A stretch of 64,000 nucleotides of DNA from Rhizophagus irregularis. Taxonomy: Eukaryota > Glomeromycota > Glomeromycetes > Glomerales > Glomeraceae. Below the pieces are notes generated by a model. The model was not told the origin of the DNA and did no database searches. It saw only the letters and a list, made by a program, of their open reading frames with translations. The stretch is from positions 3,524,501 through 3,588,500 of the forward strand of contig NC_089444.1 in assembly GCF_026210795.1 (NCBI RefSeq), in the 5' to 3' direction. The translations under genes and the position numbers were made by a program. This document shows, piece after piece, positions 25,618-45,809 of the stretch. Positions within the stretch are counted from its first letter, which is position 1, and each line of letters starts with the position of its first letter.

Positions 25618-27086
25618 TTAGGGAATAATTTAAAACAAGCAAATATTGTGGTTTATTTTGTCTAATCTATACTTTACTTTCTCATACTTAATTTTCTCAA
25701 TATATAAATGAAATTAATTGTGCAATATAATATGTTCTAAGAATTTTGTGATATTTGTGCGATTGTATTTTTAATATCATTTATTTTAATATATTTTCAT
25801 ATATAAATTTCTTTTATTTAATAATGTTTATTGTAAAGAAATGTGATTACAAATAAATTAAAATAAATAAATAAACATAAAAATAAAAAATAAAACAAGT
25901 TTATATAATAATAACTAAAAATTAACTAAAAAAATAGGAATTGAGCAAAAATTAAACATTTTATTCAAAATAATGCAATATTTTCAACGAGATTTTTATC
26001 TGATAATTGACATTATACGTAAAAATGATGTAATGATGTAACACGAGAAAATTTTAAAGGACATTTCGATTAACGAATGTAAAAAGAAAAAAAAATATTA
26101 TAATACTTTTTACAACAAATGTTATAATGCACGATAATTTTTGATAATTTTTTTAATTTGCTGTATCTTTTTAATGTATGCATACAAAAAGAAAGTATTT
26201 TAAAACAAAATTATTCCTTTAATGTACATTATATACAATATATTAAATATGTTCACACGTAACATTTCCAATTTATTGTCTGACAAAAAGAAACGAATTT
26301 TTATATTTGTAATAAAACTTTACGCAGCTCGTCAAAAAGGTTTGGACAACGGTCCAGTTGTAAATAAAAAGTACTACTCTAATATTGGCATATAAAAATT
26401 TTTCGAATATTAATTTGATTTCACAATGAGAACACAGTTCTTAACAAAATACGCGTCGCAAGTTTCAACGAAAAAATATTTCATTTTAGAAAAAAACTAT
26501 GTAAAAGATTTTTTATTTTGATAATAAATTTCGCGCTGACTTTGATGGCTTTTCGTATTATAATGTGCATGATTTTAATCTTTATTAAACAGCTTAACTT
26601 TCGCTTTGCTTATTTTAAAATCTATGAATAAATCTGTTGAATAAGAATTACAAATACGATTTTTTGTAACGTTCTGATAAAAATATTGTACCATAAAATT
26701 TTATTTTAAATATTCAAAGTTAATAAATACATTACTTTTTTAAAAATATTAGTTTGGTAAATCTTTAAATTTAACTAGAAATAACACAATTTGCTGATTA
26801 TACTTACAATAGTGTATATTATGCCTACAGCAGAAAAGCTTTAAAAATAAATTCCTATTAGAAAATATTACTTTGCTTATTATGGTAGTATTTTGCTTGA
26901 GTTTTAAACCTTTTAGTTAATCAAGCCAGTTAGCTTAATTTGATAACAAGATCATGGCAATAAAAGCTCAAATTCAGCTTACATGAACATCATTTTGATA
27001 TTGTGAAATATTGTGTTAACATTTTATGAATATAAGGGGTGGAAAATTTTATTTTGCAGAATATAATCAACAAATTCACACATCTG
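25618..27086. other. Non-coding stretch containing repeat copy A
   Basis: AT-rich, no supportable gene. Positions 26018-26779 are a diverged direct copy of 36490-37356 (separate entry). Confidence 0.55.
26018..26779. repeat. Direct repeat copy A, 3' flank of kinase array 1
   Basis: Collinear with 36490-37356 over about 0.76 kb, including shared blocks such as TTTACGCAGCTCGTCAAAAA, AACATTTCCAATTTATTGTC and TGTTGAATAAGAATTACAAA. Copy B carries an extra insertion of about 80 bp after CTCTAATATTG. Both copies lie downstream (3') of a kinase array, in the same orientation, so they probably moved as part of one locus duplication. Confidence 0.75.
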
Positions 27087-27567: not shown

Positions 27568-30500
27568 TCATTTGAAACTAATTGGAAGAGCACAATGATC
27601 CAAAGATTGAGAATTATAATCATCATCATTTTTTGGAAGATCTTTTGTAATAGGATTAAGTAATCGAGATGTATAAATAGCTTGTGGATGGGTAGCTGTT
27701 TGGTAATTTTCAATGGAAGTAAGATTTGCTTTTCTATATTCTTCTGCTTCCTCAAATTGTATTACAATTTCTTCATTTCCTACAATAACAAAATTCTCCA
27801 CATACAACTCATAAAATGATGTGATTAATTTATCTATCTCAAAAATATCTGGTCTATTATTTTTATCTAAATCCCAACACTTTTTCATTAAATCAATATA
27901 ATATCTTGGTGTTTCTGGCTCACTTATTTCAGGTCTAATTCCTTTGCAAATATCTAATGCAAGAAGATGATCATGTGCATGATTGCCAAAAGGTTGTTTT
28001 CCAGTTGCTACAAAATACATTATCATACCAAAACTATAGATATCTGCTGCTTGAGTATAAGGCTTTCCTCTTAATACTTCGGGAGCCATATAAGGCATAA
28101 CTTTATAAATTTTTGTTTCATCTAAACTATCAACTTCTCCACATAATCCCATATCTGAAATTAATACACAGTTACTAAAATAACTTATGAAATTTAAAAA
28201 TAATATATTTCCTGTATGAAAATCATGATGAACTAAATTTCTTTGATGTATTTCTTTAAGACCATTAACAATATTAAGTAATACAGATATTTTATCCTTC
28301 CAATTAAAATATTCATAGTTTTTATTTATCCAATGATTAAAATTGCCTTCTTCTGCATATTGGAGAACCATAATATATTCTTTTGTATCTGGATTTTGAG
28401 ATATTCCATATATATTAAGAATATTACTGCTTTTACTTATTGAGTACTTTTTAACCTATTAAAATACATTGATATATATCAAAAATCATTATTACATCAT
28501 GCTTAAATGAAAAATTACTATATTAAAGTGATTCTTAAAAAAGTTTCATACCTCATTTAGAAATTTATCAGTAATATTTTGGGAATTACACAAACATTTC
28601 AAAGCAATTACTCTATTTGGATTCCTAATGTAAATGTCTTCATTCACATCATATTCTAATGGACCATTCTTCCACTCTGCTGAATATACTGTAGAAAAAC
28701 CACCCTTACCTATTTCCTTAATATCATTGAACTGACTGTATGGTATCCATTCAAATACTATATCATCATAGCCATGGCCATTTATTTTTAATTGCATTTC
28801 TTGAATGAAATAATCAATTTTTCCATTTCCACTTGTCCACATAAGAACTAAAATATAATCTTCTGTATCCGGATTTTGAGATATTCCATACAATGCTTGA
28901 AATGCTTTATATTTTGTTGTATATTTTCTAGTCTAATTATAAATAAAAGAGATTGTAAATATATTAATTAAAAAAGGTATTTAAATATTTGAAGAAATTT
29001 TATACCTCGTTTATTAGAGATTCAATTGAATTTTGTGAGTTATTTAAATATTTTAAAGCAACTACTTTATTTAAATCTCTTGTATAATAGCTCTGCCTAT
29101 TCTTTTTGTATAATGGACCATCCTTCCATATTGCTGAATATACTTTTATAAGGCCATTTTTGCTTGTCTCTTTAATTTCATTAAACTGACTGTATGGTAT
29201 CCATTCTAACACTATATCATCATAATCATTTATTTTTAATTGCATTTCTTGAATGAAATAATCAATTTTTTCATTTCCACTTGTCCAGTTAAGAATTAAA
29301 AAATAATCTCCTGTATTTAGATTTTGAGATATACCATATAATACTTGAAGTAATTCTCTATGTACTGTTGGATATTTTCTAGCCTAATTATAAATAAAAG
29401 AAATTGTAAATATACCAATTAAAAAAAAAGTATTTAAATATTTAAAAAATTTCATACCTCATTTATTAAAGAATCAATGGATTCTTGTAAATTATGTAAA
29501 TATTTTAAAGCAACTTTTTTATTTGAATCTCTTGTATAATTACTCCTAATATACTCTTTATGTAATGGACCATCCTTCCATATTGCTGAATATACTGTTA
29601 TAAGGCCATTTTTGCCTGTCTCTTTAATTTCATTAAACTGGTTGTATGGTATCCATTCAAGCACTATATCACTATAGCTAATTATATTTAATTGCCTTTC
29701 TTGGATGAAATCATCAATTTTTTCGTTTCCACTTGTCCAGGTAAGAACTAAAATAAAATCTCCTGTATCTGGATTTTGAGATATACCATATAGTACTTGA
29801 AATGCTTTATATTTTATTGGATATTTTTTAGCCTAAATATAAATAAAGGAGATATGTAAATATTAATTAAAAAATTATATAAATATTTAAAGAAATTTAT
29901 ACCTCATTTATTAATGAATCAATAGATTTTTGTGTATTATGTAAACATTTTAAAGCAATTTTTTTATATAAATCTCTTGTATATTTTGTATACTGCTTGT
30001 TATAAAATAATGGACCATTCTTCCATATTGCTGAATATACTGTTATAAGGCCATTTTTGCCTGTCTCTTTAATTTCATTAAACTGATTGTATGGTATCCA
30101 TTCTAGCACTATATCATCATAGTTATTTATTTTTAATTGCCTTTCTCGAATGAAATAATCAATTTTTTCATTTCCACTGACCCAATTTACTAAGTTTATA
30201 AGATTATTTTGAACTAAAATATAATCTCCTGTATCTGGATTTTGAGATATTCCATACAATGCTTGAAATGCACCTTTATCTATTGAATATCTCTTAGCCT
30301 AAATATAAATAAAAGAGATTGTAAATATAGTAATTGAAAAAAGTATTTAAATATTTAAAGAAATTCATACCTCATTTATTAATGAATCAATGGATTCTTG
30401 TGAATTATGTAAGTATTTTAAAGCAACCCTTTCATTTAAACCTCTATTATAATTTTTATTATGCTTTTTATAACATAATGGACCATTTATCCATATTGCT

Positions 30501-32139
30501 GAATATACTGTTATAAAACCATTTTTGCCTGCTTCTTCAATTTTATTAAATTGATCGTATGGTATCCATTCAAGCACTATATTATTATAGTTATTAATTG
30601 TTAATAATTGTCTTTCTTGAATAAAATCATCAATTTTTTCATTGCCACTGTTCCAATTTACTAAGTTAATAAAATTATTTTGAACAAAAATATAATCTCC
30701 TGTATCTGGATTTTGAGATATTCCATATAATACTTGAAATGCATCTTCAATTGTTGAATATCTTTTAGCCTAAATATAAATAAAAGAGATTGTAAATATA
30801 GTAATTGAAAAAAGTATTTCAATATTTAAAGAAATTTCGTACCTCATTTATTAAAGAATCAATGGATTCTTGTAAATTATGTAAATATATTAAAGCAACT
30901 TCTTTATTTGAACCTCTTTTATAGTAATTTCTCCAACTATACTCTTTATGTAATGGTCCATCCTTCCATATTGCTGAATATACTGTTATAAGGCCATTTT
31001 TGCCTGTCTCTTTAATTTCATTAAACTGATTGTATGGTACCCATTCTAGCACTATATCATCATAGTTATTTATTTTTAATTGCCTTTCTCGAATGAAATA
31101 ATCAATTTTTTCATTTCCACTGACCCAATTTACTAAGTTTATAAGATTATTTTGAACAAAAATATAATCTCCTGTATCTGGATTTTGAGATATTCCATAT
31201 AATACTTGAAATGCATCTTCATCTGTTGAATATCTTTTAGCCTAAATATAAATAAAAGAGATTGTAGATATAGTAATTGAAAAAGTATTTAAATATTTAA
31301 AGAAATTTCGTACCTCATTTATTAAAGAATCAATGGATTCTTCTTGTAAATTATGTAAATATATTAAAGCAACTTCTTTATTTGAACCTCTTTTATAGTA
31401 ATTTCTCCAACTATACTCTTTATGTAATGGTCCATCCTTCCATATTGCTGAATATACTGTTATAGAATCATTTTTGCCTGTTTCTTTAATCTCATTAAAC
31501 TGATTGTATGGTATCCATTCTAGCACTATATCATTATAGTCATTTATTTTTAATTGCCTTTCTCGAATGAAATAATCAATTTTTTCATTTCCACTGACCC
31601 AATTTACTAAGTTTATAAGATTATTTTGAACTAAAATATAATCTCCTGTATCTGGATCTTGAGATATTCCATATAATACTTGAAAAGCATCTTTATCTGT
31701 TGAATATCTTTTAGCCTAAATATAAATAAAAGAGATTGTAAATATAGTAATTGAAAAAAGTATTTCAATATTTAAAGAAATTTCGTACCTCATTTATTAA
31801 AGAATCAACGGATTCTTGTAAATTATGTAAATATATTAAAGCAACTTCTTTAATTGAATATCTTTTATAATTTCTCCAACTATACTCTTTATGTAATGGA
31901 CCATCCTTCCATATTGCTGAATATACTGTTATAGAATCATTTTTGCCTGTCTCTCTGATTTTATTAAATTGTTTATATGGTATCCATTCAAATACTACAT
32001 CATTTTCATTATTGATTTTTAATTGCATTTCTTGAATGAAGTTATCAATTTTTTCATTTCCACTGGTCCAATTTGTAAAATCGTTTTTTAAATATTCCAG
32101 AATGTTAGGTATCTCTAAAGGTTTTTTTTTGAAAAACAT
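27568..32139 (-). CDS. TKL-like kinase gene with 8 tandem N-lobe exons plus catalytic exon (array 1)
   Basis: Exons in transcription order: 32139-31789, 31715-31314, 31241-30843, 30769-30371, 30298-29903, 29832-29458, 29383-29006, 28932-28552, 28455-27568. All lengths are multiples of three, all introns are 70-96 nt, phase 0, with donors GAG|GTAYRA and acceptors TAG|GYT (ACT in one). Spliced in full it gives 1322 aa. Each unit carries the end of alphaC, beta4-beta5 (YGISQNPDT-DYILV), a spacer, SGNEKID-FIQE, then beta1-beta3 (EWIPYNQFNEIKE ... VYSAIWK ... VALK) and alphaC up to its Glu (LINE). The last exon holds beta4 to the C-lobe: VHHDFHTGN catalytic loop (HHD for HRD), ISDMGLC for DFG, MAPEVL for APE. 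Only the final N-lobe has a normal loop (GKGGFSTV); the others read GKNG, SKNG or GKND. The beta3 Lys is replaced by Ile in the first three units. Family: glomeromycete TKL-like kinases. Full-length transcription is inferred, not shown. Confidence 0.7.
28552..32139 (-). repeat. Tandem exon-intron array 1 (8 units, ~445-475 bp period)
   Basis: Eight head-to-tail units, each one exon of 351-402 nt and one intron of about 70-96 nt. Intron sequences are themselves conserved (TATAAATAAAAGAGATTGTAAATATA-type blocks), so the duplicated unit is genomic, not retrocopied. The unit next to the catalytic exon is the most divergent and most kinase-like. Confidence 0.9.
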
Positions 32140-33624
32140 TTTGTAATGCTCAAAAAATTTCTTAATAATAGTACTATTCGAATGTAAGAAATTTGGGCGT
32201 TAATAAATTCCAAAAAGAAATTTTATGTAATACAGCTAGTAATATTGTTGCGCAGATCAGCATGTATGCAAAATTCGGCAAAAATTCGGCATACCGCTGA
32301 CATAATTGAAATGATCAACAATTTGTTGGTGTTTTGTATAACTTATACTTTGTATAACTTACACTCATTGCAAGTTATACTAAGTGTAAGTTATACGCGA
32401 TGAAGGATTAATATATAAGGTTTTAGTTTATTCATATTAAATATTGTAGATCGCCGATAGCGAGGTAGTAATATTGTTAATTTTATTTTGTTTGTGATTG
32501 CATTTTGGCATTTACTTTTCGTACTTATTGTTATACATTTATTATAAATTTAATAAGTATGCACTTTAATTTCCACACATGCACTTTAAATTTCAAACTA
32601 TTCGTTAAGGTGTATTTCTGTTACAATCACGTGACCTCGACGCAATATCAAAATCGATGTCAATCATGTTCTGTAGCACAAAAAAGTTACATATAAAAAA
32701 ATTCAAATCTTTATAGCTTTGTAGAATAATATTTAGATAAATACGCAATTTATATCATTTATAATGTGTTTATGAAGTTTTGTTAAAAAAAATTGGTACT
32801 TTTTACTCTTAGAAATCATAGCCAGAAGTCTTATCTCGAAAATCACATGATTTTGTAAGCGATCTGATCACGTGATCTAGTCAGCCAATAAAATTCTGAG
32901 ATTTGTAGATTTTTCGTGCATAAATATTTTCCTACTTTCTCAAAATCTTTCAAATCTTCTTTTATTTAATCATAAATCATTTCACTTCTAAGCCTCTATT
33001 CGATTTCAAACAACTCCACCATTTGTCCATTCTTCAATAATTTTATTATTCATCCATTTTTCATCTTCAACAGCCTTAATCCGAACATTGTGTCTGTAGC
33101 ATTCTTTTTTCTAGGTATCTTAATAATCTGCTCTTTGTTTTATATTACATTTGAAATAAATGGTTATTAGCCTATTCAAATAAGGATTTTCATTTATTAT
33201 GAATGTCAAAATTTTACTCATAATCGCTGTAAATTAATTTTGGACCATAATTTCAGCTCAAATTATGGAAAATTTCAGCCAATTAAATTGCTTTCACATG
33301 ATCGCAATTTTAAATGGTTATAACTTTTTGTGATAATTTTACGAAAAGTGATACAAATGTCCAGATATCCTAACTTTGACAGTTTCTAATAACAAAGGAT
33401 GCATTATGATCATCCAAATACTTAAATAACTCATGAGGCAAATTAAAAAAAAAAATCCTTGCGCTTCTCTTTTCTCTTCTATATTTTGTCAAGCATGATG
33501 GACTGAAGGTAAGGTATAACCAACTCTTCACACTGTAAAATGTACTTGAACGAATATAAAAACTGAGGTTAGATAGGGAAACCTGTGTATAATCCTAAAT
33601 GATAAGTATGATCGTATGGATATA
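32140..33624. other. Upstream region of array 1, no gene
   Basis: Presumed promoter side of the kinase gene. Holds a 14-bp inverted repeat at 32352-32396 and two TCACGTGA octamers (about 32627 and 32873). A 63-codon frame at 32505-32696 has no supportable features. Confidence 0.5.
32352..32396. promoter_or_regulatory. Perfect 14-bp inverted repeat upstream of kinase array 1
   Basis: GTATAACTTACACT and AGTGTAAGTTATAC are separated by 17 bp; two further partial copies of TATAACTTA precede it. It sits about 215 bp upstream of the first ATG of the kinase gene. It could be an operator-like site or a remnant transposon end; regulatory role is inference. Confidence 0.35.
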
Positions 33625-33774
33625 ATGAGAAAGTTTATTTTAAAAACAATTTCTTTATCGATTTTAATATCATGTTGCATAGGCAACGGAATTGTAGACG
33701 AATTATACTTAGCAGAAGCAACATATAATTTAATTACTGTAATTTATTTAATTCACTATAATAGAAAGAAATAG
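33625..33774 (+). CDS. Possible 49-aa secreted peptide
   Basis: ATG to TAG, 50 codons. Residues 1-22 look like a signal peptide: basic start (MRKFILK), hydrophobic core (SLSILIS) and a small-residue cleavage region (CCIGNG). The remaining ~27 residues are VDELYLAEATYNLI followed by a short hydrophobic run and a basic end (HYNRKK). A TATAAAAA box lies at about 33555, some 70 nt upstream, and AATAAA at about 33844 downstream. No family recognised. Small secreted proteins are common in mycorrhizal fungi, but at this length a chance frame is possible, or a first exon of a longer gene. Confidence 0.35.
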   Translation: MRKFILKTISLSILISCCIGNGIVDELYLAEATYNLITVIYLIHYNRKK

Positions 33775-36339
33775 TTATGATGAATATGTTGAAAATAACT
33801 GAAGTTACGGACTAGTTACGGTAGGATAAAAATATAATTATAAATAAAATTCTTTATTTCTAACCTTTATTGGTCAATAGTCATATAAACTCGTTTCAAC
33901 CCCTAAAATAATAAATTTTCAAGTTAATAACAGTACATAAACATTTAGAGTTATGCGTATTTTAACAATGCAGTCAAACTTCATACAATATATGTTTTCA
34001 ATGATGATTTTAATTCCCGTTTAAGAAAGTTTCTGACCAATTAATAAACCACAATTTCTTACTAAATGTAGATTTGGTAGCTTGTACTGTATTTTTTTTA
34101 GCGTAATGCAAGCCAAAATTAGATATATGACCAGCATTATAATCTACTAATAGGCATTATATACCAATGAGACATTTTTATACAAAGTTATTAATAGGTA
34201 TACAATAAAAAAACGTATTTTCATATAATATTAATTATCAAATATGACTAGAATTGAATATTCCATTTTTTATCAGTTAAGCTTTCAAAGTTCATAACCA
34301 TGTTAAATTATTTTTTTTCATGAAGTAACAAATTATTATAATCGTATAAGAACACGAAAAGAAAATAATATGGAATAAATAGTCAAACACATAAACATTA
34401 CAACGCACCATCAGAAAATTGTAAGTAAATATTATTAAATTTCGTAAAGCATTCGAAATAATTTCTATTAAATATAAATTAGTTATATAGTTTATTTAGT
34501 ATATAATATATTTGTTATTTGTTTGCAAGTGATATATTGACGTTTTAACTGTGGTGATGAATTTTCAGAATATTATAAAAAGCTTATATAATATAATTCC
34601 TTCATTTATTTTTCAAAGTAACTGATTTCATTCTAACTATTACGTCATGACTGAATAATAATTTTAAAAAATTTATTATGTGATATACGTCATATAACAA
34701 TAATTTTTGTTCAAAATTATAATATTTTTCTAAAATAGTCAAAATATCCAAAAATTTTAACGCAATTTATGATTGTTCTTATTTCTTTAATAATATATTT
34801 TTCATTCAGTTAATTTATCTAAAAGTAAAAAATTTACAAATTCCAAATTCAAAATGGTCCAAAAAAGAGTATGGTCAAGAATCTATAAATGATTACACGT
34901 CATCATCACATAATCGTATGAGAGGATAGACAACTAAAAAATAGATTTTTTTTTTATAATACAATATTGATATTATTTCATTTTATTTATTTAACCAAAT
35001 TCTCGAGTAACATATAAATGAAACTTATATAAGTAATAGAAGGTCCAGACCTGATTTATTTTTATTTGGGTTGTATTTACCCAGGTAATTCTTTCATGCT
35101 CATAGGGATGATTATAATTTGTTAATAATTTTATTATATATATATATATTTTTTAACGAAGTCAAATGTAATTACTTTATTTAGAAATAAGAAAAATTAC
35201 AAACTACACTATATAACATTTAGTAAAAGAACACAATGCACGTAAATAACGTGATATTATTTAACCAATAAAATACAAATCATGTGATCATAAATCATTA
35301 TTTAAGTTACTCCACCCGCAATTTTTAAAAAAGGGAAGTAAAAACATTTTTCTAGCTTAGAATTTTAAAACTAGCTGATTAAAATTGTTGATATATAAAA
35401 ATACTGTATAAATATTTTTACAATAAATTTTCTATTTAAAATTTACGCAATCACGTAAAAATAGCACATGGTTCATACATTATAAATATTTATAATCGAT
35501 AACAAGATAATTATTATTCGTATTTCAAAGAAATCGGTTCTTTAAAACCAAAAACCGAAAATAATATTAAATAATGATAATATCCCAAAAATGTGTTATG
35601 TTGACAAATTTTATTACTTTTATTTTTATACCTTTCTTAAATATTAATCAAATTTCTTGTTACTATGAAAGATTACTTAACATTTAATTTTTTTAAAAAA
35701 AAAAGTTTATTCATGTAATAATATCCACGCAAAAAAAAAGATATGTAAAAAAATGTTTAACAATTCTTTTGGTTTGTTTTATTTATGTCGCATGAGTTCT
35801 CCGACTTCTTTGATAAAAGTGTAATAATAGGAATCAATTGGAATAACAAAAATTTGTAATATACAGTTTTTACTACACCTACCACAAATGATACTAAATT
35901 TGATTAGATAGTCTTTAATTTTTTTTCTTGACATAAAAGATAAGACCGTTTCTAATTTTAGAAAATATTAGTATTACGCAACATTCTTTGTTAAAATCAT
36001 TTTTTCCGTAAACAAAAACGTCATTGTATATTAAATCTAAATTGGAAAGATCTTCAAGATAATGTAATACAATTGTTCATACAAGTTAACAAAATATTCT
36101 ATCCATCAAAAAAAAATTTCGAGGTAAATTACTTGTCAAGATATTACTACCTCACAGTGTCCCTTCATGATTTACAATTAATTGTCGCTCTTAGAATGTA
36201 TTAAACCTTCCCAAATTGTGTATGAAATGATCCAATAATTCTGATTCAAATTATAGATTAAATTGTTATCAATTCATGACCTCATTCAGTTGAAGATTTC
36301 CATAAATAAAATTTACGCACGAATTGTTTTTTAGACCGA

Positions 36340-38085
36340 CCATTCAATAAGTTATTTCTGGATGATATGAAGAAACAATCTGTTGATAAAGGCGTTGAAG
36401 CCGTGAGTGCTGCTATTATAATTGCCACCATGTTATTAATTATTCCAGAAAAGAGAAAAATAAATAATTTTTTTTTTTGAAATAAATTTTACGCGACGTA
36501 AAAATAATGTGATGTATTTTAAAGGACATTTTTTGACGATTAACGAATGTAAATAATGATTATAATTCTTTTTCAACAGATGTTATAATGCACGATAATT
36601 TTTGATAATTTTTTTAATTTTGCTGTACTGTATATTTTTAATGTATAATTATATAAAAAAAAGAAAGTATTTTAAACCGAAATTATTTCTTACTTTAATG
36701 TACATTATATATCAAATATGTTCCACACGTAACATTTCCAATTTATTGTCTGACAAGAATAGTGAATTTTTATATTTGTAAAAAAAACTTTACGCAGCTC
36801 GTCAAAAAAGGTTTGGACAACGGCCCAGTTGTAAAATGGATAAGTATTACTCTAATATTGACATATTGTCTTATTAATCAAATTGTGACTTTTTACTGCT
36901 ACGATGAATTTTTTTAATTTTTTCTTAATACTATGAAAAAAAATTAAAATTTTCGAATATTAGTTTGATTTCACAATGTGAACATAGTTCTTAATGTAAT
37001 GAAATACGCGGCACAGAGGTTTCAACGAAAAAATATTTTTATTATTTTATTTTTAAGAAAAAAATTATGTAAAAGATTTTTTTAATTTGATAATAAATTT
37101 CGTGTTGACTTTGAATACCTTTCGTAATGATGACTTTTCGTATTATAATGTGTATGATTTAATCTTTCTTAAATAGCTTAACTTTCGTTTTGTCTATTTT
37201 AAAGTCTATTAATAATTCTGTTGAATAAGAATTACAAATACGAACGTTCTGATAAAATATTATACCATAAAATTTTATTTTTAAATATTCAAAGGTAATA
37301 AATACATTACTTTTTTTAATTAAGAAAAAAATATTAGTTTGGTAAATCTTTAAAATTTAGATAATATAAATAATATGATTGTTTGAACACTTTTAAAATT
37401 ATTATGAAATATTCATATCAAGTTTTTAACATTCTTAATCTATTTAGTCATTGATTAGTTCATAAAATTCCAAAGGAATTTATAGTAAGTACTCAGTTAA
37501 ATTTTCAAAACATAGGGATAAAACAGTGTTATACCAAGATTCTAACATTTTATTTTAATAATTTAATATTGTTTCATATTCTAATCTCAGGAAATATTAA
37601 ATGTATTGTAGCTGCAAATTTACAAGTTATAGGACCGCACCTAGTACTGTAATCTCAACTGTTTCATCTTATAAAAATCCAGTTCATATTCAAGAAATTT
37701 CTGGTAAAATTATTAGTGATGCCGACGATGGTTTTTCCAGAATTAGAAAACCAACATTGTTAATCACTAAGATCTATCTACATATAATAGACTCTCGCTA
37801 TTTTTTTAATAATAAATTTAGCAATAAAAAATTATATAAAGATAAAATTACTATATTTTGCTATTTCTCTATAATGAAAACAATTTTGGACCGGAATGCA
37901 TTGTCATCGAATGAATATTATATACAGAGGTTAATTTATAAGTTTTAACAAACTACTATTAAACTTTATTATAGCTTTAGCAATCGCAACAACTGGCTAA
38001 AATTATTACTCTAAATGTTACAAATATTTTAAAGTTGGCTTCAGTTAACTATGAATCAATCAATAACATTATCGAGGTAAATTAC
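36340..38085 (+). pseudogene. Exon-like relics of an unrecognised gene
   Basis: Three stretches look exon-like on the plus strand. 36340-36479 follows a TTTTTTAG acceptor-like site and reads DMKKQSVDKGVEAVSAA then a hydrophobic run (IIIATMLLII). 37580-37948 follows TCTCAG; a 115-codon frame begins at 37601 but a second frame is equally plausible at its start. 37979-38074 reads QQLAKIITLNVTNILKLASV ... NNIIE and ends in GAG|GTAAATT, a good donor; a matching GAG|GTAAATTAC occurs at about 36121. I could not join them in a single frame, and repeat copy B lies between the first and second. They may be debris of one or two genes; no function can be named. Confidence 0.25.
36490..37356. repeat. Direct repeat copy B
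   Basis: Diverged direct copy of 26018-26779 with an internal insertion of about 80 bp. Located 3' of kinase array 2, as copy A is 3' of array 1. Confidence 0.75.
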
Positions 38086-39019
38086 ATAATAAACTACATA
38101 TGATAAATATACTACAAATAAAAATTGCACAATCTGGGCATTTAAATGAACTAAATTCCTTTTTAATTATTTTGATATTTAGCTTCTTTAGTATTTTATG
38201 TTATACACAACAAATGAACCTCGTAACCTACTTATAAGATTGTATAAAAAATATAAATTTTTTATTTCTTTTTAAATATAAGATATTTAAAGCTGTATGC
38301 ATAATTTAGCATCAAGTTTAACTAATGAGATGTAATAAATTTAATTAGAAAAGTAAAAGGCGGATTTATAAAATAATATAATAAGTGGAATACCTAAGTA
38401 TCTGAATGGAACTTAAGCTATTTTTAACAAACCAATTTAATTTCTACCATTAAATAATTATCTAATATACACAATAAGTAATTCTAAAGGACCTAGTAAT
38501 AAAAAATTGATTCAAATATACTTACAAAAAAAAGCTAATGAAAATGTCAATAAACTTCTTAAATTATCAATCTTTAAGGTTTAGAAAAACTCAGCTGGAC
38601 GATTAATTGTAGTTCTGGCCGGCACTAAACTTTTTTCGGTCAGTAAAATTACAAAAGGGTTTCGCTTTTTAATTAAAAAAATTTTTTGCATGATTATTCT
38701 AACTCAAGTCCAGGCTCTTAAAATTTTATAATAAATATCTTATTAGTATATCTGATATTATTCTGCTCAATCTACAATAAGAAGACTATTATATAATTAT
38801 GGATTTTTTTGAGGAACATGTACTATTATTATACTAGTATTGTACTAACAGCCAATGTAAATGGTATGATTGCATAATCTATGTTAAGAATCATGAAAAT
38901 ACGTAAATTATAATTTAAGGGATTAAATTTCGGATTAAGTAAGCTTTTAAAAGTTTAGAAACATAGTCACCAAAACATTTAATATTTTGGATTTTACATA
39001 TAAAAGTGTTTTATATTCC

Positions 39020-39180
39020 ACGTTTTTTCCATGAATGTATCGTTTCATGGAATTTATAGCCTTAAATCATGGAAATTTTCATCTCTCTAACACGGATATC
39101 CGCGAATGTATCATTTTTTTACGGAACTTTACGAAAGCCACGGAAATATTCGGATAAAACTTTTTTATAGTGATATCATA
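39020..39180. repeat. Dispersed repeat, inverted relative to 19.5 kb
   Basis: Shares TTCCATGA, AAATCATGGAAATTTTCATC and ACGAAAGCCACGGAAATATT blocks with the reverse complement of 19500-19668. The right edge reads TTTTTTATAGTG and the left edge near 38997 is a loose inverse of it, consistent with a TIR element. Confidence 0.5.
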
Positions 39181-39958
39181 AAAATTATTTTCACAATAAT
39201 ATTATTTAACTATAAACTTAGAGATAGTAAATTCATAAGTTTTTATACTTACGTGACATAAAATGTTATATTTATCTCATTATGGACAATTAACTACTTT
39301 CCAAGAAGTTGAATGAAACACCAACCTTCTTGAGGCTTAAGATTGTTGCTGAAATTGAAAATTGTATTATCAATCTGATTCCGGATGTCGAAGGTCATTA
39401 ATTTATTAAACCAAGCAAGATAATACCTATAATAGACTTTAAAATAATTTTTGCATCAAAATAAATAGTGAATTTTAATTCTCGTGATTAAAACAAAGTA
39501 ATTAACTAAATTATTCCTGGAAATTATTAGTGTCAGATTATATATATTTAGGTTTGTTAAACTTCTGCTCAATTACAAACTGATTTTATTTATGAAGTAA
39601 AAACTTACATATACTCTATAATCAGTGTAGAACAAAAACTAACTACATAATGTAAAAAAATATATAATTACTCTATCTAAAATGATTATCAATAATATTG
39701 ATAATTATAATTCAGATTACTAGTGTTAATAATAGAGAAAGAAGGCTGATTTTTTGATGCAGAAACATTATGAACAAACATCTATACATGATATTAAACA
39801 AATTCTATAATTGATGCAAAAATATTGTAATAAGGACAAAATATTACAATCATATATATATCTGTCTGCATTTTAAGTTTTCCATAGTAAGATATTAAAG
39901 AGTTTGGAAAATCTAATTGATGTATTGAAGATATTTGAAAGTTAATCTGAATATATTA

Positions 39959-42900
39959 TCATTTATCAAGGATTGCGCAACTTAAATATTCAGATTTTAG
40001 AAAATCTTCTGTAAAAAAATTGGGTACTAATTGAGATGTATAAATTGCTTGTGGATGTTTGATTTTTTTAAAAGAATCTGAAAGGTGTGATTTTCTGTAA
40101 ATTTCTGCTTCTATAAATTGCTTTCTAATTTCTATTGCATTTGAATCACCTTTTTTATATAAATTATAGAAATTAAAAAATGACTCAATTAATTCATGTA
40201 TTTCCGTAGTATTTGGTCTATTATCTGGATTTGAATCCCAACATCTTTTCATTAAGTCAACATAACATTTTGGCACTTCCAACTCACTTATTTCAGGTCT
40301 AATTCCTTCACATATTTCTAATATTAGATGATAATCATGTGCACGATTGACAAAAGGTTGTTTTCCAGTTGCTGTGAAATACATAATCATACCAAAGCTA
40401 TATACATCTGCTGCTTGGGTATAAGCTTCATTTCTTAACACCTCAGGAGCCATATAAGAAATAACTCCATAAGATTGTACCTCACTTGTATTATTTACGT
40501 CTTCACATAATCCCATATCAGATATAAATAATGATTTTCTATTAAAAGTATTTAAACTTTTTGTTAAAAATAATATATTCCCTGGATGTAAATCATGATG
40601 AACCTTCTTATTTTGATGAATCCCATTAAGACCTTCAATGATATATAGTAGTGTTTGTATTTTATTTTTCCAATCAAAATATTTATAATTATTATTTATC
40701 CAATTATTAAAACTTCCACCTTCTGCATATTCAAGAACTATGATAAAATTGTTTGTATCTGGATTTTGAGATATTCCATATACATTAAGAATATCACTCT
40801 TTTTATTAATTGAATATTCTTTAACCTATTTAAAAATATATATCATTAACTTTAAAAAGGTTTTTGATCAATTACACTATAAATTCATAAAAATTTTCAT
40901 ACCTCATTTAAGAATTTATCAATTAAATTTGATGAATTATTCAGACATTTTAAAGCAATTTTTTTGTTTGAAACTCTTGTATACGTTTTCTTATCAATAT
41001 CATATTTTAATGGACCATCTTTCCATATTGCTGAATATACTACAGCAAATCCACCTTTACCTATTTCCTTAATGTAATTGAATTGATCATATGGTATCCA
41101 TTCAAATACTATATTAAAACAAGAATCTATCCTTAATTGCATTTCTTGAATTAAATTAATAAATTTTTCATTTCCATTTGTCCATTTTATAAAATTATTT
41201 ATTTGACATAGTTTACACCACAAATATTTTATTTGAGTAAATTTTACTCCACAATTTTTACAGTATTTTTTACCATATTCCAAACAATATTCTTTTTGAA
41301 GAACTAAAATGTAATCTTTTTTATCTGAATTTTGAGATAATCCATATATTTTGAAGCTACTATCAAATTCTTTAACCTGTTAAATTAAAAATATATTATT
41401 AAATTAAAGAAAATTATATTAAAATAAAAATTATTTCATACCTTAACTAGAAGTTTTTGTGAGTCGTTATAACATAATAAAGTAACTTCATATTCCCATA
41501 TTGCTGAACATACTGTAACAAAATGACCTTTGCCTGTATTCCTAATTTTATTAAACTGATTGTATGGTATCCATTCAAACCTTAAATCACTTGGTTCATT
41601 AATTTTTAATTGAATTAATAAATTATCAATTTTATCATTTCCACTTTTCCAGCCCATAAATTTACATGGTTTACACCATTTATACTGGATATCTGTACAT
41701 ATTTCATCACATATGACACAATATTCTTCAGAAAATAAAGCCAATATATAGTCATTGGTATTTGGATTTTGAGATATTCCATACAATATAAGAAACTCAT
41801 CATATTTTTTAGCCTAAATATAAACAAAATAATGATATGTTAAAAAGCACATGTTATTAATTAAACCGTTTGTAAAAATATTATACCTTATTTATTACAG
41901 ATTCTATGGAATTTTGTGAATTATGCAAAAATTTTAATGCAACTTCTTTATTTGAATCTCTTGTATAATATTTATTATGGTAATTATAATGTAATGGACC
42001 ATTTTTCCATATTGCTGAATATACAGTTATAGAATTATTTTTACCTGTTTCTTTAATTTCATTAAACTGATTGTATGGTATCCATTCAAATACTACATTA
42101 TTATAGGAATTAATATTTAATTGTCTTTCTTGAATAAAATCATCAATTTTTTCATTTCCACTCAGAATAAGATAATTTTGAACTAAAATATAATCACTTG
42201 TAACTGGATTTTGAGATATTCCATATAACACAAGAAACATATCAAATTTTGTTGAATATTTTTTAGCCTAAAATCATAAGCAGAAAATTAACATTATATT
42301 AAAAAAATATAATAAATGTAATAATATTTATAGAAATTTATACCTCATTTATTAGAGAATCAACAGGATATTGTAAGTTATGCAAACATTTTAAAGCAAC
42401 TTCTTTATTTGAAACTCTTATATATTCATTTTCATTATATTGTAATGGGCCATTTTTCCATATTGCTGAATATACAGTTATAGAACCATTTTTGTCTGTT
42501 TCTTTAATTTCATTAAACTGATTGTATGGTATCCATTCAAACACTATATTATTTATATCATCATCATCATAGTCATTTATTTTTAATTGTCTTTCTTGAA
42601 TGAAATCATCAATTTTTTCATTTCCACTCAGGATAAGATAATTTTGAACTAAAATATAATCACTTGTAACTGGATTTTGTGATATTCCATACAATACAAG
42701 AAAATCATTATTTTTTGTTGAATATTTTTTAACCTAAAACCATAAACAGAAAATTAATAAAATATAATAATAAATGTAATAATATTTATAGAAATTTATA
42801 CCTCATTTATTAGAGAATCAACAGGATATTGTAAGTTATGCAAACATTTTAAAGCAACTTCTTTATTTGAAACTCTTATATATTCATTTTCATTATATTG

Positions 42901-45809
42901 TAATGGGCCATTTTTCCATATTGCTGAATATACAGTTATAGAACCATTTTTGTCTGTTTCTTTAATTTCATTAAACTGATTGTATGGTATCCATTCAAAC
43001 ACTATATTATTTATATCATCATCATCATAGTCATTTATTTTTAATTGTCTTTCTTGAATGAAATCATCAATTTTTTCATTTCCACTCAGGATAAGATAAT
43101 TTTGAACTAAAATATAATCACTTGTAACTGGATTCTGTGATATTCCATACAATACAAGAAACTCATTATTTTTTGTTGAATATTTTTTAACCTAAAACCA
43201 TGAACAGAAAATTAATAAAATATAATAATAAATGTAACAACATTTATAGAATTTTTTTACCTCATTTATTAGAGAATCAACAGGATTTTGCAAGTTATGC
43301 AAATATTTTAAAGCAACTTCTTTATTTGAATCTCTTGTATAATTCTTATCTTTCCAATGCTTTTTGTGTAATGGACCATTTTTCCATATTGCTGAATATA
43401 CAGTTATAGAACCATTTTTGCCTGTTTCTTTAATTTCATTAAACTGATTGTATGGTATCCATTCAAATACTACACAATTACTGTAATAGTAATAAATATT
43501 TAATTGTCTTTCTTGAATGAAATCATCAATATTCTCATTTCCACTCAGGATAAGATAATTTTGAACTAAAATATAATCACTTGTAACTGGATTTTGTGAT
43601 ATTCCATACAATACAAGAAAATCATTATTTTTTGTTGAATATTTTTTAACCTAAACCATAAACAGAAAATTAACATAATATGAAAAAAATAATAAATGTA
43701 TCAATATTTATAGAGTTTATACCTCATTTATTAGAGAATCAATAGGATTTTGTAAGTTATGCAAACATTTTAAAGCAACTTCTTTATTTGAATCTCTTGT
43801 ATAATTCTCATCTTTCCAATGCTTTTTGTGTAATGGACCATTTTTCCATATTGCTGAATATACAGTTATAGAACCATTTTTGCCTGTTTCTTCAATTTCA
43901 TTAAACTGATTGTATGGTATCCATTCAAATACTACATCAAAAGAATACTTAACTTCTAATTGTTTTTCTTGAATAAAATCATCAATTTTTTCATTTCCAC
44001 TAGTCCAGGTAACAACTAAAATATAATCACTTGTAACTGGATTTTGTGATATTCCATACAATACAAGAAAATCATTATTTTTTGTTGAATATTTTTTAAC
44101 CTAAAACCATAAACAGAAAATTAATAAAATATAATAATAAATGTAATAATATTTATAGAAATTTATACCTCATTTATTAGAGAATCAACAGGATATTGTA
44201 AGTTATGCAAACATTTTAAAGCAACTTCTTTATTTGAAACTCTTATATATTCATTTTCATTATATTGTAATGGGCCATTTTTCCATATTGCTGAATATAC
44301 AGTTATAGAACCATTTTTGTCTGTTTCTTTAATTTCATTAAACTGATTGTATGGTATCCATTCAAACACTATATTATTTATATCATCATCATCATAGTCA
44401 TTTATTTTTAATTGTCTTTCTTGAATGAAATCATCAATTTTTTCATTTCCACTCAGGATAAGATAATTTTGAACTAAAATATAATCACTTGTAACTGGAT
44501 TTTGTGATATTCCATATAATACAAGAAACTCATTATTTTTTATTGAATATTTTTTAACCTAAAACCATAAACAGAAAATTAATAAAATATAATTATAAAT
44601 GTAACAATATTTATAGAATTTATACCTCATTTATTAGAGAATCAACAGGATTTTGCAAGTTATGCAAATATTTTAAAGCAACTTCTTTATTTGAATCTCT
44701 TGTATAATAATTGCTCCGCCTATTCTCCTTGTGTAATGGGCCATTTTTCCATATTGCTGAATATACAGTTATAGAACCATTTTTGCCTGTTTCTTTAATT
44801 TCATTAAACTGATTGTATGGTATCCATTCAAATACTACACAATTACTGTAATAGTAATAAATATTTAATTGTCTTTCTTGAATGAAATCATCAATATTCT
44901 CATTTCCACTCAGGATAAGATAATTTTGAACTAAAATATAATCACTTGTAACTGGATTTTGTGATATTCCATACAATACAAGAAAATCATTATTTTTTGT
45001 TGAATATTTTTTAACCTAAAACCATAAACAGAAAATTAATAAAATATAATTATAAATGTAACAATATTTATAGAATTTATACCTCATTTATTAGAGAATC
45101 AACAGGATTTTGCAAGTTATGCAAATATTTTAAAGCAACTTCTTTATTTGAATCTCTTGTATAATTATTACTCCCCCTATCCTCTTTGTGTAATGGACCA
45201 TTATTCCATATTGCTGAATATACTGTTATAGCACCACTTCTACCTGTTTCTTTAATTTCATTAAACTGATTGTATGGTATCCATTCAAATTTTACATCAT
45301 CATTGGAATTAATTTTTAATTGTCTTTTTTGAACGAAATCATCAATATTTTCATTTCCACTCAAGATAAGATAATTTTGAACTAAAATATAATCACTTGT
45401 ATCTGGATTTTGTGATATTCCATATAATACAAGAAACTCATTATTTTTTATTGAATATTTTTTAACCTAAACCATAAACAGAAAATTAACAAAATATAAT
45501 AATAAATGTAACAATATTTATAGAAATTTATACCTCATTTATTAGATAATCAACAGGATTTTGCAAGTCATGCAAACATTTTAAAGCAACTTCTTTATTT
45601 GAATCTCTTATTGCATACCAACTATAATATAATGGGCCATTTTTCCATATTGCTGAATATACAGTCATAGAACCATTTTTGCCTGTTTCTTTAATTTCAT
45701 TAAACTGATTGTATGGTATCCATTCAAATACTACATTATTATAGGAATTAGCTTTTAATTGTCTTTCTTGAATGAAATTATTAATTTTTTCATTTCCGCT
45801 GGAAGACAT
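39959..45809 (-). CDS. TKL-like kinase gene with 11 tandem N-lobe exons plus catalytic exon (array 2)
   Basis: Exons in transcription order: 45809-45534, 45466-45083, 45015-44626, 44558-44169, 44100-43723, 43650-43261, 43191-42802, 42733-42344, 42267-41887, 41813-41442, 41376-40903, 40825-39959. Every exon is a multiple of three and every junction is phase 0; introns are 65-77 nt. Joined, they encode about 1693 aa. The start is MSSSGNEKINNF, an ATG fused directly to the module start. Unit composition is as in array 1. The penultimate exon (158 codons) has a normal loop (GKGGFAVV), IALK lysine and a Cys4 zinc-ribbon-like motif (YCKNCGVKF ... WCKLCQ); the one before it has a related CVICDE ... 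WCKPCK motif but no beta3 Lys. The last exon has VHHDLHPGN, ISDMGLC, MAPEVL and a C-terminal tail like that of array 1. Catalysis is plausible for the terminal domain. Whether all units are included in mRNA is unknown. Confidence 0.7.
40903..45809 (-). repeat. Tandem exon-intron array 2 (11 units, ~446-462 bp period for the recent ones)
   Basis: Units at 42344-42733, 42802-43191 and 44169-44558 are almost identical in DNA (their encoded modules are the same over the parts compared), and those at 43261-43650 and 44626-45015 are close to each other. The alternation implies higher-order duplication or gene conversion. Introns between them (TAAAACCATAAACAGAAAAT core) are equally conserved. Confidence 0.9.

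Follow-up and report, generated by a model that had tools for sequence, protein, structure and literature searches.

Two predicted genes of Rhizophagus irregularis with strings of kinase N-lobes ahead of a single C-lobe

The stretch of DNA analyzed here (the window) comprises 64,000 nucleotides of a chromosome-scale contig of the arbuscular mycorrhizal fungus Rhizophagus irregularis (contig C16, positions 3524501-3588500), and all coordinates below are positions within it. It contains two genes, A and B, both on the minus strand and both made of a series of exons that encode N-terminal kinase lobes (N-lobes), followed by a single exon that encodes a C-terminal lobe (C-lobe). Gene A runs from 32139 to 27568 with eight N-lobe exons and then one C-lobe exon (nine in total), and gene B from 45809 to 39959 with eleven and then one (twelve in total). 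All 21 exons are open and a multiple of three in length, every junction is in phase 0, and the 19 introns measure 65-96 nucleotides, with GTATGA, GTATAA, GTACGA or, in one case, GTAAAA at the donor and AG at the acceptor. The initial annotation of the window had described just such a layout (eight and eleven consecutive open exons with usable splice sites ahead of a final C-lobe exon), and it was confirmed. When joined from the first in-frame ATG, the exons would encode proteins of 1322 (gene A) and 1693 (gene B) amino acids.

Each of these exons had also been taken for one N-lobe. The exon series itself stands, but a single exon is not a single lobe. A middle exon (hereafter a unit) begins with the end of helix C ('..NE|AKRY') and beta4-beta5 ('LYGISQNPDTGDYILV') of the preceding lobe, continues through a linker helix ('SGNEKIDDFIQERQL'), and closes with the next lobe's beta1-beta3 and helix C. 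Because it thus holds the end of one lobe and the start of another, the lobes span the exon junctions. The last exon of each gene supplies beta4-beta5 together with the entire C-lobe, including the motifs HHDxHxGN, DMG and APE. A Cys-rich stretch (CxxC..WCxxC) is retained in exons B10 and B11, and it also precedes the lobe in ordinary members of the family and in the Glomus cerebriforme protein P0083. The deposited models OCT59_008474 (P0009) and OCT59_008475 (P0033) match genes A and B in sequence and join the same exons; Illumina and Nanopore RNA reads were used for the OCT59 annotation, according to its paper. Pieces of the C-lobe exons omitted by these models (27868-28029 and 40151-40393) begin at a donor-like TTTG|GTATGA and reflect either real alternative splicing or prediction error. 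In-frame pieces of exon A4 (30578-30649) and exon B11 (41062-41274) are omitted as well. Downstream of both genes lie short direct repeats (26254-26659 and 36724-37243) that are 81-91% alike and about 10.5 kb apart, which may point to an earlier duplication of the entire gene.

Exons of genes A and B, with the score of the kinase profile PF07714 where it exceeded the cut-off
Feature	Position	Strand	Remark
Gene A exon 1: start, linker helix, lobe 1 beta1-beta3	31789..32139	-	first in-frame ATG; frame open from 32199
Gene A exon 2: N-lobe unit; beta3 Lys replaced (VALI)	31314..31715	-	
Gene A exon 3: N-lobe unit; VALI	30843..31241	-	
Gene A exon 4: N-lobe unit	30371..30769	-	
Gene A exon 5: N-lobe unit	29903..30298	-	
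Gene A exon 6: N-lobe unit	29458..29832	-	
Gene A exon 7: N-lobe unit	29006..29383	-	
Gene A exon 8: catalytic-type N-lobe, intact loop IGKGGFSTV	28552..28932	-	
Gene A exon 9: helix C end, beta4-beta5, C-lobe (HHDFHTGN, DMG, APE), stop codon	27568..28455	-	PF07714 114.5 bits
Gene B exon 1: lobe 1, from first in-frame ATG	45534..45809	-	
Gene B exon 2: N-lobe unit	45083..45466	-	
Gene B exon 3: N-lobe unit	44626..45015	-	
Gene B exon 4: N-lobe unit, near-identical to exons 7 and 8	44169..44558	-	
Gene B exon 5: N-lobe unit	43723..44100	-	
Gene B exon 6: N-lobe unit, donor GTAAAA	43261..43650	-	
Gene B exon 7: N-lobe unit	42802..43191	-	
Gene B exon 8: N-lobe unit	42344..42733	-	
Gene B exon 9: N-lobe unit	41887..42267	-	
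Gene B exon 10: Cys-rich linker (CxxC..WCxxC) and shortened N-lobe	41442..41813	-	
Gene B exon 11: Cys-rich linker and catalytic-type N-lobe, loop IGKGGFAVV	40903..41376	-	
Gene B exon 12: helix C end, beta4-beta5, C-lobe (HHDLHPGN, DMG, APE), stop codon	39959..40825	-	PF07714 113.5 bits

The same design is found elsewhere in this genome and in related fungi. A search of the genome itself (146.7 Mb in 32 contigs) with the protein of one unit returned at least 150 matches (150 of 4351 candidates were scored), only one of which contained a stop; unit matches lie on contigs C2, C4, C5, C7, C9, C11, C12, C13, C16, C18, C20 and C28. The window and ten further loci provided twelve arrays, and a C-lobe was found by profile in eight of them. 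The C-lobe exon of locus L045 starts right at the border of the sequence fetched, and the array of L039 runs off its stretch. The array of L042, on the reverse strand from about 5748, is followed by an unrelated long frame that by eye resembles a trypsin-like protease, and that of L043, from 6978, closes with a GKGGF-type lobe exon after which the rest of the stretch gives no match to a C-lobe, so that it may be a cut-off gene. Two protein searches, with the best 120 of 467 and the best 120 of 537 matches retained, yielded 173 different relatives, all named as R. irregularis, R. clarus or Glomus cerebriforme. Among these listed relatives, 139 have a run of N-lobes and then a C-lobe and 34 have N-lobes only, while an N-lobe after the C-lobe was seen in none of the 173. 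They carry 4 to 18 lobes each, counting partial matches, and 111 of the best 120 from the first search join more than five lobes in one deposited model.

The lobe next to the C-lobe differs from those upstream in its kinase motifs. At a cut-off of 23.1 bits, PF07714 was detected in both C-lobe exons but in none of the five unit exons tested. The motifs GKGGF, ALK, NE, HHDxHxGN and SDMG can all be read in the terminal kinase of genes A and B, and this final pair of lobes is predicted to be an active, catalytic-type kinase. Motifs were counted over full-length lobe matches in the window genes plus the 173 proteins, a set in which A and B are represented twice. The second glycine of the adenosine triphosphate (ATP) loop is present in 133 of 134 lobes adjoining a C-lobe, as against 61 of 1252 upstream lobes, where asparagine is the commonest residue at this position (700/1252) and 54 have a gap. 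The beta3 lysine (132/134 adjoining, 1062/1252 upstream) and the helix-C glutamate (132/134 and 898/1252) are less sharply divided, and all three residues occur together in 130 of the 134 adjoining lobes versus 17 of the 1252 upstream ones. By species, the second glycine is found in 87/87 adjoining and 33/878 upstream lobes of R. irregularis, in 43/44 and 23/358 of R. clarus, and in 3/3 and 5/16 of Glomus cerebriforme, which keeps it upstream more often. Since the state of the ATP loop is set by position in the string, the lobes would appear to be used together and in order rather than swapped for one another. Judged from sequence, the upstream exons are not spare catalytic N-lobes.

Structure prediction is in agreement with this arrangement. 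The AlphaFold2 model of a four-lobe relative (P0100, 46 alignment rows) has a mean predicted local distance difference test score (pLDDT) of 79.7, and in it the series helix-beta1-beta2-beta3-helixC-beta4-beta5 is repeated four times and followed by the C-lobe. Fold comparison with the PDB matched kinases, the VIA rows spanning model residues of about 397-756, which are mainly the last lobe and the C-lobe. The top Foldseek rows by E-value were Janus kinase dimers with a query template modelling (TM) score of 0.30 and a root-mean-square deviation above 23, and do not represent a meaningful whole-chain match. The idea that a single exon folds by itself as a circularly permuted lobe was also modelled and was not supported (mean pLDDT 51.6, from a shallow alignment of 15 rows).

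To what extent the units are under constraint was assessed in a survey made with a protein profile over 27-46.5 kb of the window and the ten fetched loci, in which a length divisible by three was imposed by the script. It gave 130 full-length internal units, of which 128 are flanked in phase by AG and GT at about the positions expected and two are not; unit B10 in the window was recorded as shortened. None of the 128 exons with splice sites contains a stop codon. In mutation-only simulations, which used the real units as parents and treated them as independent, 3% change per unit produced stops in 87 of the 128 units on average (and in no fewer than 73 in any of 100 runs), and 8.5%, which is half the median pairwise divergence, produced them in 122. 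It had been argued at the outset that frame retention over so many exons is unlikely without selection. The result holds, but a copied phase-0 exon stays in frame in any case, so that the part going beyond chance is the absence of stops at such divergence, and it is this count and the ratio of nonsynonymous to synonymous substitution (dN/dS) that carry the point. Median pairwise dN/dS was 0.53 at dS 0.2-0.5 (6166 pairs) and 0.46 at dS 0.5-1.0 (831 pairs), and the value on the tree was 0.55. Mutation-only runs gave medians of 1.16-1.28, a baseline for which base composition was assumed and in which the parent consensus itself held a stop. Tree counts detected no amino-acid change at E59, W60, Q65, G16, G88 and L109 of the unit alignment. 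Constraint on the units looks moderate rather than strong. Gaps were a multiple of three in 954/1714 cases in exons and 258/1396 in introns, but this is weak evidence and probably an effect of the DNA aligner, because exon lengths were multiples of three by construction.

A fast-changing part of the unit is the loop between beta2 and beta3, which lies above the mean synonymous rate in the tree count. Among 45 pairs with less than 5% distance in the core, dN and dS were 0.215 and 0.375 in the loop versus 0.025 and 0.053 in the core (111 of the 128 units could be parsed, with 93 distinct loops). As both rates are raised, this indicates turnover by indels or exchange, or misalignment, and not an excess of dN over dS. 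A scan for positive selection returned 8 of 125 sites at an uncorrected 0.05, about the chance level, and none is claimed. In the protein set, loop identity at 80-90% flank identity was 0.30 for upstream lobes and 0.51 for last lobes, in a comparison where the loop pattern failed on 581/1252 and 70/134 of them, respectively.

Whole units also appear to come and go. For 92 of 128 units the closest other unit belongs to the same locus, against 12 expected by chance, and units of one array differ from their nearest relative by a median of 9%. Two R. irregularis proteins, P0021 with eight lobes and P0025 (locus tag RhiirA1) with six, have C-terminal tails that are 98% identical over 264 amino acids, and the six lobes and C-lobe of P0025 correspond to lobes 1, 4, 5, 6, 7 and 8 and the C-lobe of P0021 at 94-100% identity, as if lobes 2 and 3 of the latter had been gained or lost as whole units. 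The R. clarus proteins P0019 and P0079 have tails identical (100%) over 311 amino acids and 14 versus 7 lobe matches. Gene-model or assembly error can mimic such differences in unit number. From its exon anatomy, a string looks as if derived from an ordinary kinase of two exons by fusion of the beginning of exon 2 to that of exon 1, followed by multiplication of the product. Upstream lobes would accordingly be built from exon 1 plus the start of exon 2, and strings would grow by tandem copying of an exon-plus-intron unit of 0.44-0.48 kb. Most listed matches in the genome search with PF07714 begin near profile position 50-73 and not at 1, the pattern to be predicted if many kinases of this family are interrupted between helix C and beta4.

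Taken together, we think it probable, though well short of settled, that each locus forms a single gene and encodes one long protein in which a string of N-lobes lacking the ATP loop serves as docking or recognition repeats and controls a single terminal kinase. In such a chain, each N-lobe would be followed directly by the next where an ordinary kinase has its C-lobe, and only at the end would one catalytic-type N-lobe be joined to the sole C-lobe. By their sequence, the upstream lobes have lost the working ATP loop while keeping the core of the fold and often the beta3 lysine and helix-C glutamate. Translated together, they could act as a polyvalent series of contacts, either N-lobe to N-lobe or N-lobe to partner, that gathers partners at the terminal kinase or holds that kinase in check. 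Giant proteins capped by one active kinase were one of two options in the initial annotation, and the lobe order and motif split fit that option. A more specific proposal, which we regard as unlikely, is that the kinase N-lobe has become a new class of recognition repeat, with the strings detecting signals from self, partner or plant and triggering the terminal kinase. With their fast-changing beta2-beta3 loops, and with lobe number and order shifting between isolates by unit exchange, they would then be a fungal counterpart of repeat-based immune or incompatibility receptors.

Several observations weigh against a single docking protein. Arrays L042 and L043 show no C-lobe within the stretch fetched, and 34 of the 173 listed relatives lack one; two further units in L043 and one in L046 each gave matches in two different frames; close pairs (dS 0.02-0.2, n=1118) have a median dN/dS of 0.88, with 71% below 1; and the median divergence of exons (0.127) equals that of introns (0.123). 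In addition, the single long product is predicted from the genes and from two deposited models, and both models omit in-frame pieces that include part of the C-lobe exon, so that the exact product may differ; the docking role is a guess from the repeat architecture. Some of these points would suit an array that grows as non-coding sequence by slippage or unequal exchange, with transcription and use confined to the last N-lobe exon and the C-lobe exon: exons diverge as fast as introns, some arrays lack a C-lobe, and amplification is evidently easy, given the same-locus nearest relatives and the near-identical units of gene B. Such growth is nevertheless unlikely, because it would be expected to leave stops in 87 or more of the 128 units rather than in none, would not conserve particular positions of the N-lobe core or bring dN/dS to about half its mutation-only level, and would not be expected to give R. 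clarus and Glomus cerebriforme proteins of this design as well.

The second option offered at the outset, exchangeable N-lobe exons, fares less well still. Alternative splicing would here attach a single selected N-lobe exon to the C-lobe, or else vary the number of lobes by leaving units out. Every unit is a phase-0 cassette and the donors are similar, and the in-frame pieces dropped from the deposited models, two of them starting within the C-lobe exons at TTTG|GTATGA, would be in keeping with flexible splicing. However, with so few upstream lobes retaining the second glycine, a swap would produce a kinase without an ATP loop, and nearly all of the best 120 proteins join more than five lobes in one model. 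Exchange among catalytic exons is ruled out by the split in the ATP loop between last and upstream lobes, and exchangeable N-lobe exons in general are distinctly improbable, although skipping that alters no more than the number of lobes may still occur; in a Dscam-type gene each alternative exon supplies the same functional part, whereas the upstream lobes here lack the ATP-loop glycine. That the arrays are assembly artefacts or wrong gene models is very improbable: tandem repeats are hard to assemble and the deposited models differ in detail from the exons, but proteins from several assemblies and three named species share the design, and a median 9% difference between units of one array is not expected from collapsed or stuttered reads. 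Of the two initial options, one long protein with a single terminal kinase is the better.

A third protein search, with the distant relative L006 (contig C25) as query, brought in 118 further proteins, all within the admitted range of 287-911 amino acids. L006 and L005, also on C25, are distant 'YGISKDP'-type kinases that likewise have repeated N-lobe exons before the C-lobe; their GGF loop is present in the lobe adjoining the C-lobe and absent from the upstream lobes read by eye. Among 52 Diversispora proteins, 40 have one N-lobe and then C-lobe matches, seven have a second lobe pair or fragment after the C-lobe (NCNC, NcNC or NCnC), four have at least two consecutive N matches, and one reads CnC. 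The upstream lobes of the short Diversispora candidate strings keep the ATP loop (P0204). The two Gigaspora proteins recovered are NC and NCNC, and R. irregularis has NC and NCNC members as well; long strings in Diversispora or Gigaspora could fall outside the size range admitted. In these data, then, strings occur in Rhizophagus and Glomus, and Diversispora adds a few short candidates. One protein filed under Mycoplasmataceae bacterium RV_VA103A (P0279) has a longer N-terminal part and then an N-lobe and C-lobe of the fungal kinase type, which represents either gene transfer to an endobacterium or contamination.

The strings are a variant of the kinase family whose architecture we have not found described. 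The initial annotation knew of no such kinase, and the open literature yielded none, although subscription papers and preprints lay mostly outside its scope and this is no proof of absence. PF07714 is the commonest motif among rapidly expanded R. irregularis genes (PMC6123716), and 2,533 expanded kinase genes have been counted in the species (PMC10234402); in the portions of these and related papers available to us (PMC6123716, PMC8647823, PMC4771724, PMC10234402), kinase families are reported as expanded and the N-lobe-string architecture is not. These expanded tyrosine-kinase-like proteins share with genes A and B the fungus, the C-lobe and an ordinary N-lobe, but the accounts available give gene number and not strings without C-lobes, possibly because unit exons fall below the Pfam cut-off. 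The strings would belong to this expansion of about 2,500 genes (PMC10234402) in a root-dwelling soil fungus. Counts of 'kinase genes' hide their architecture because standard domain profiles miss the upstream lobes. A kinase lobe repeated in tandem on its own would separate the functions of the N-lobe (helix-C docking and lobe-lobe contact) from catalysis and add a class of repeat to the protein repertoire.

Among known systems, fungal incompatibility receptors of the HET-E WD40 type contain near-identical repeats that vary in number. Like the strings, they combine a series of repeats with one effector domain, unit-number variation and concerted evolution; fold and effector differ, so that the likeness is one of architecture and a recognition role for the strings is hypothetical. 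Closer in sequence are the full tandem kinases of Diversispora and Gigaspora (N-C-N-C; P0181 and P0192), in which lobes and linkers are homologous to those of the strings but every N-lobe has a C-lobe of its own, unlike in the strings; this form is likely to be the ancestral state. Tandem kinase-pseudokinases such as wheat Yr15/WTK1, and the Janus kinases, also place an altered kinase-like part before an active kinase. Their repeat is a whole two-lobed kinase domain. A pseudokinase keeps the complete fold and loses a catalytic motif, and tandem kinases have two or more complete domains, whereas the upstream lobes described here lack both the ATP-loop glycine and a whole C-lobe, genes A and B each have one C-lobe in last position, and the repeats are N-lobes only, in strings of 4-18.

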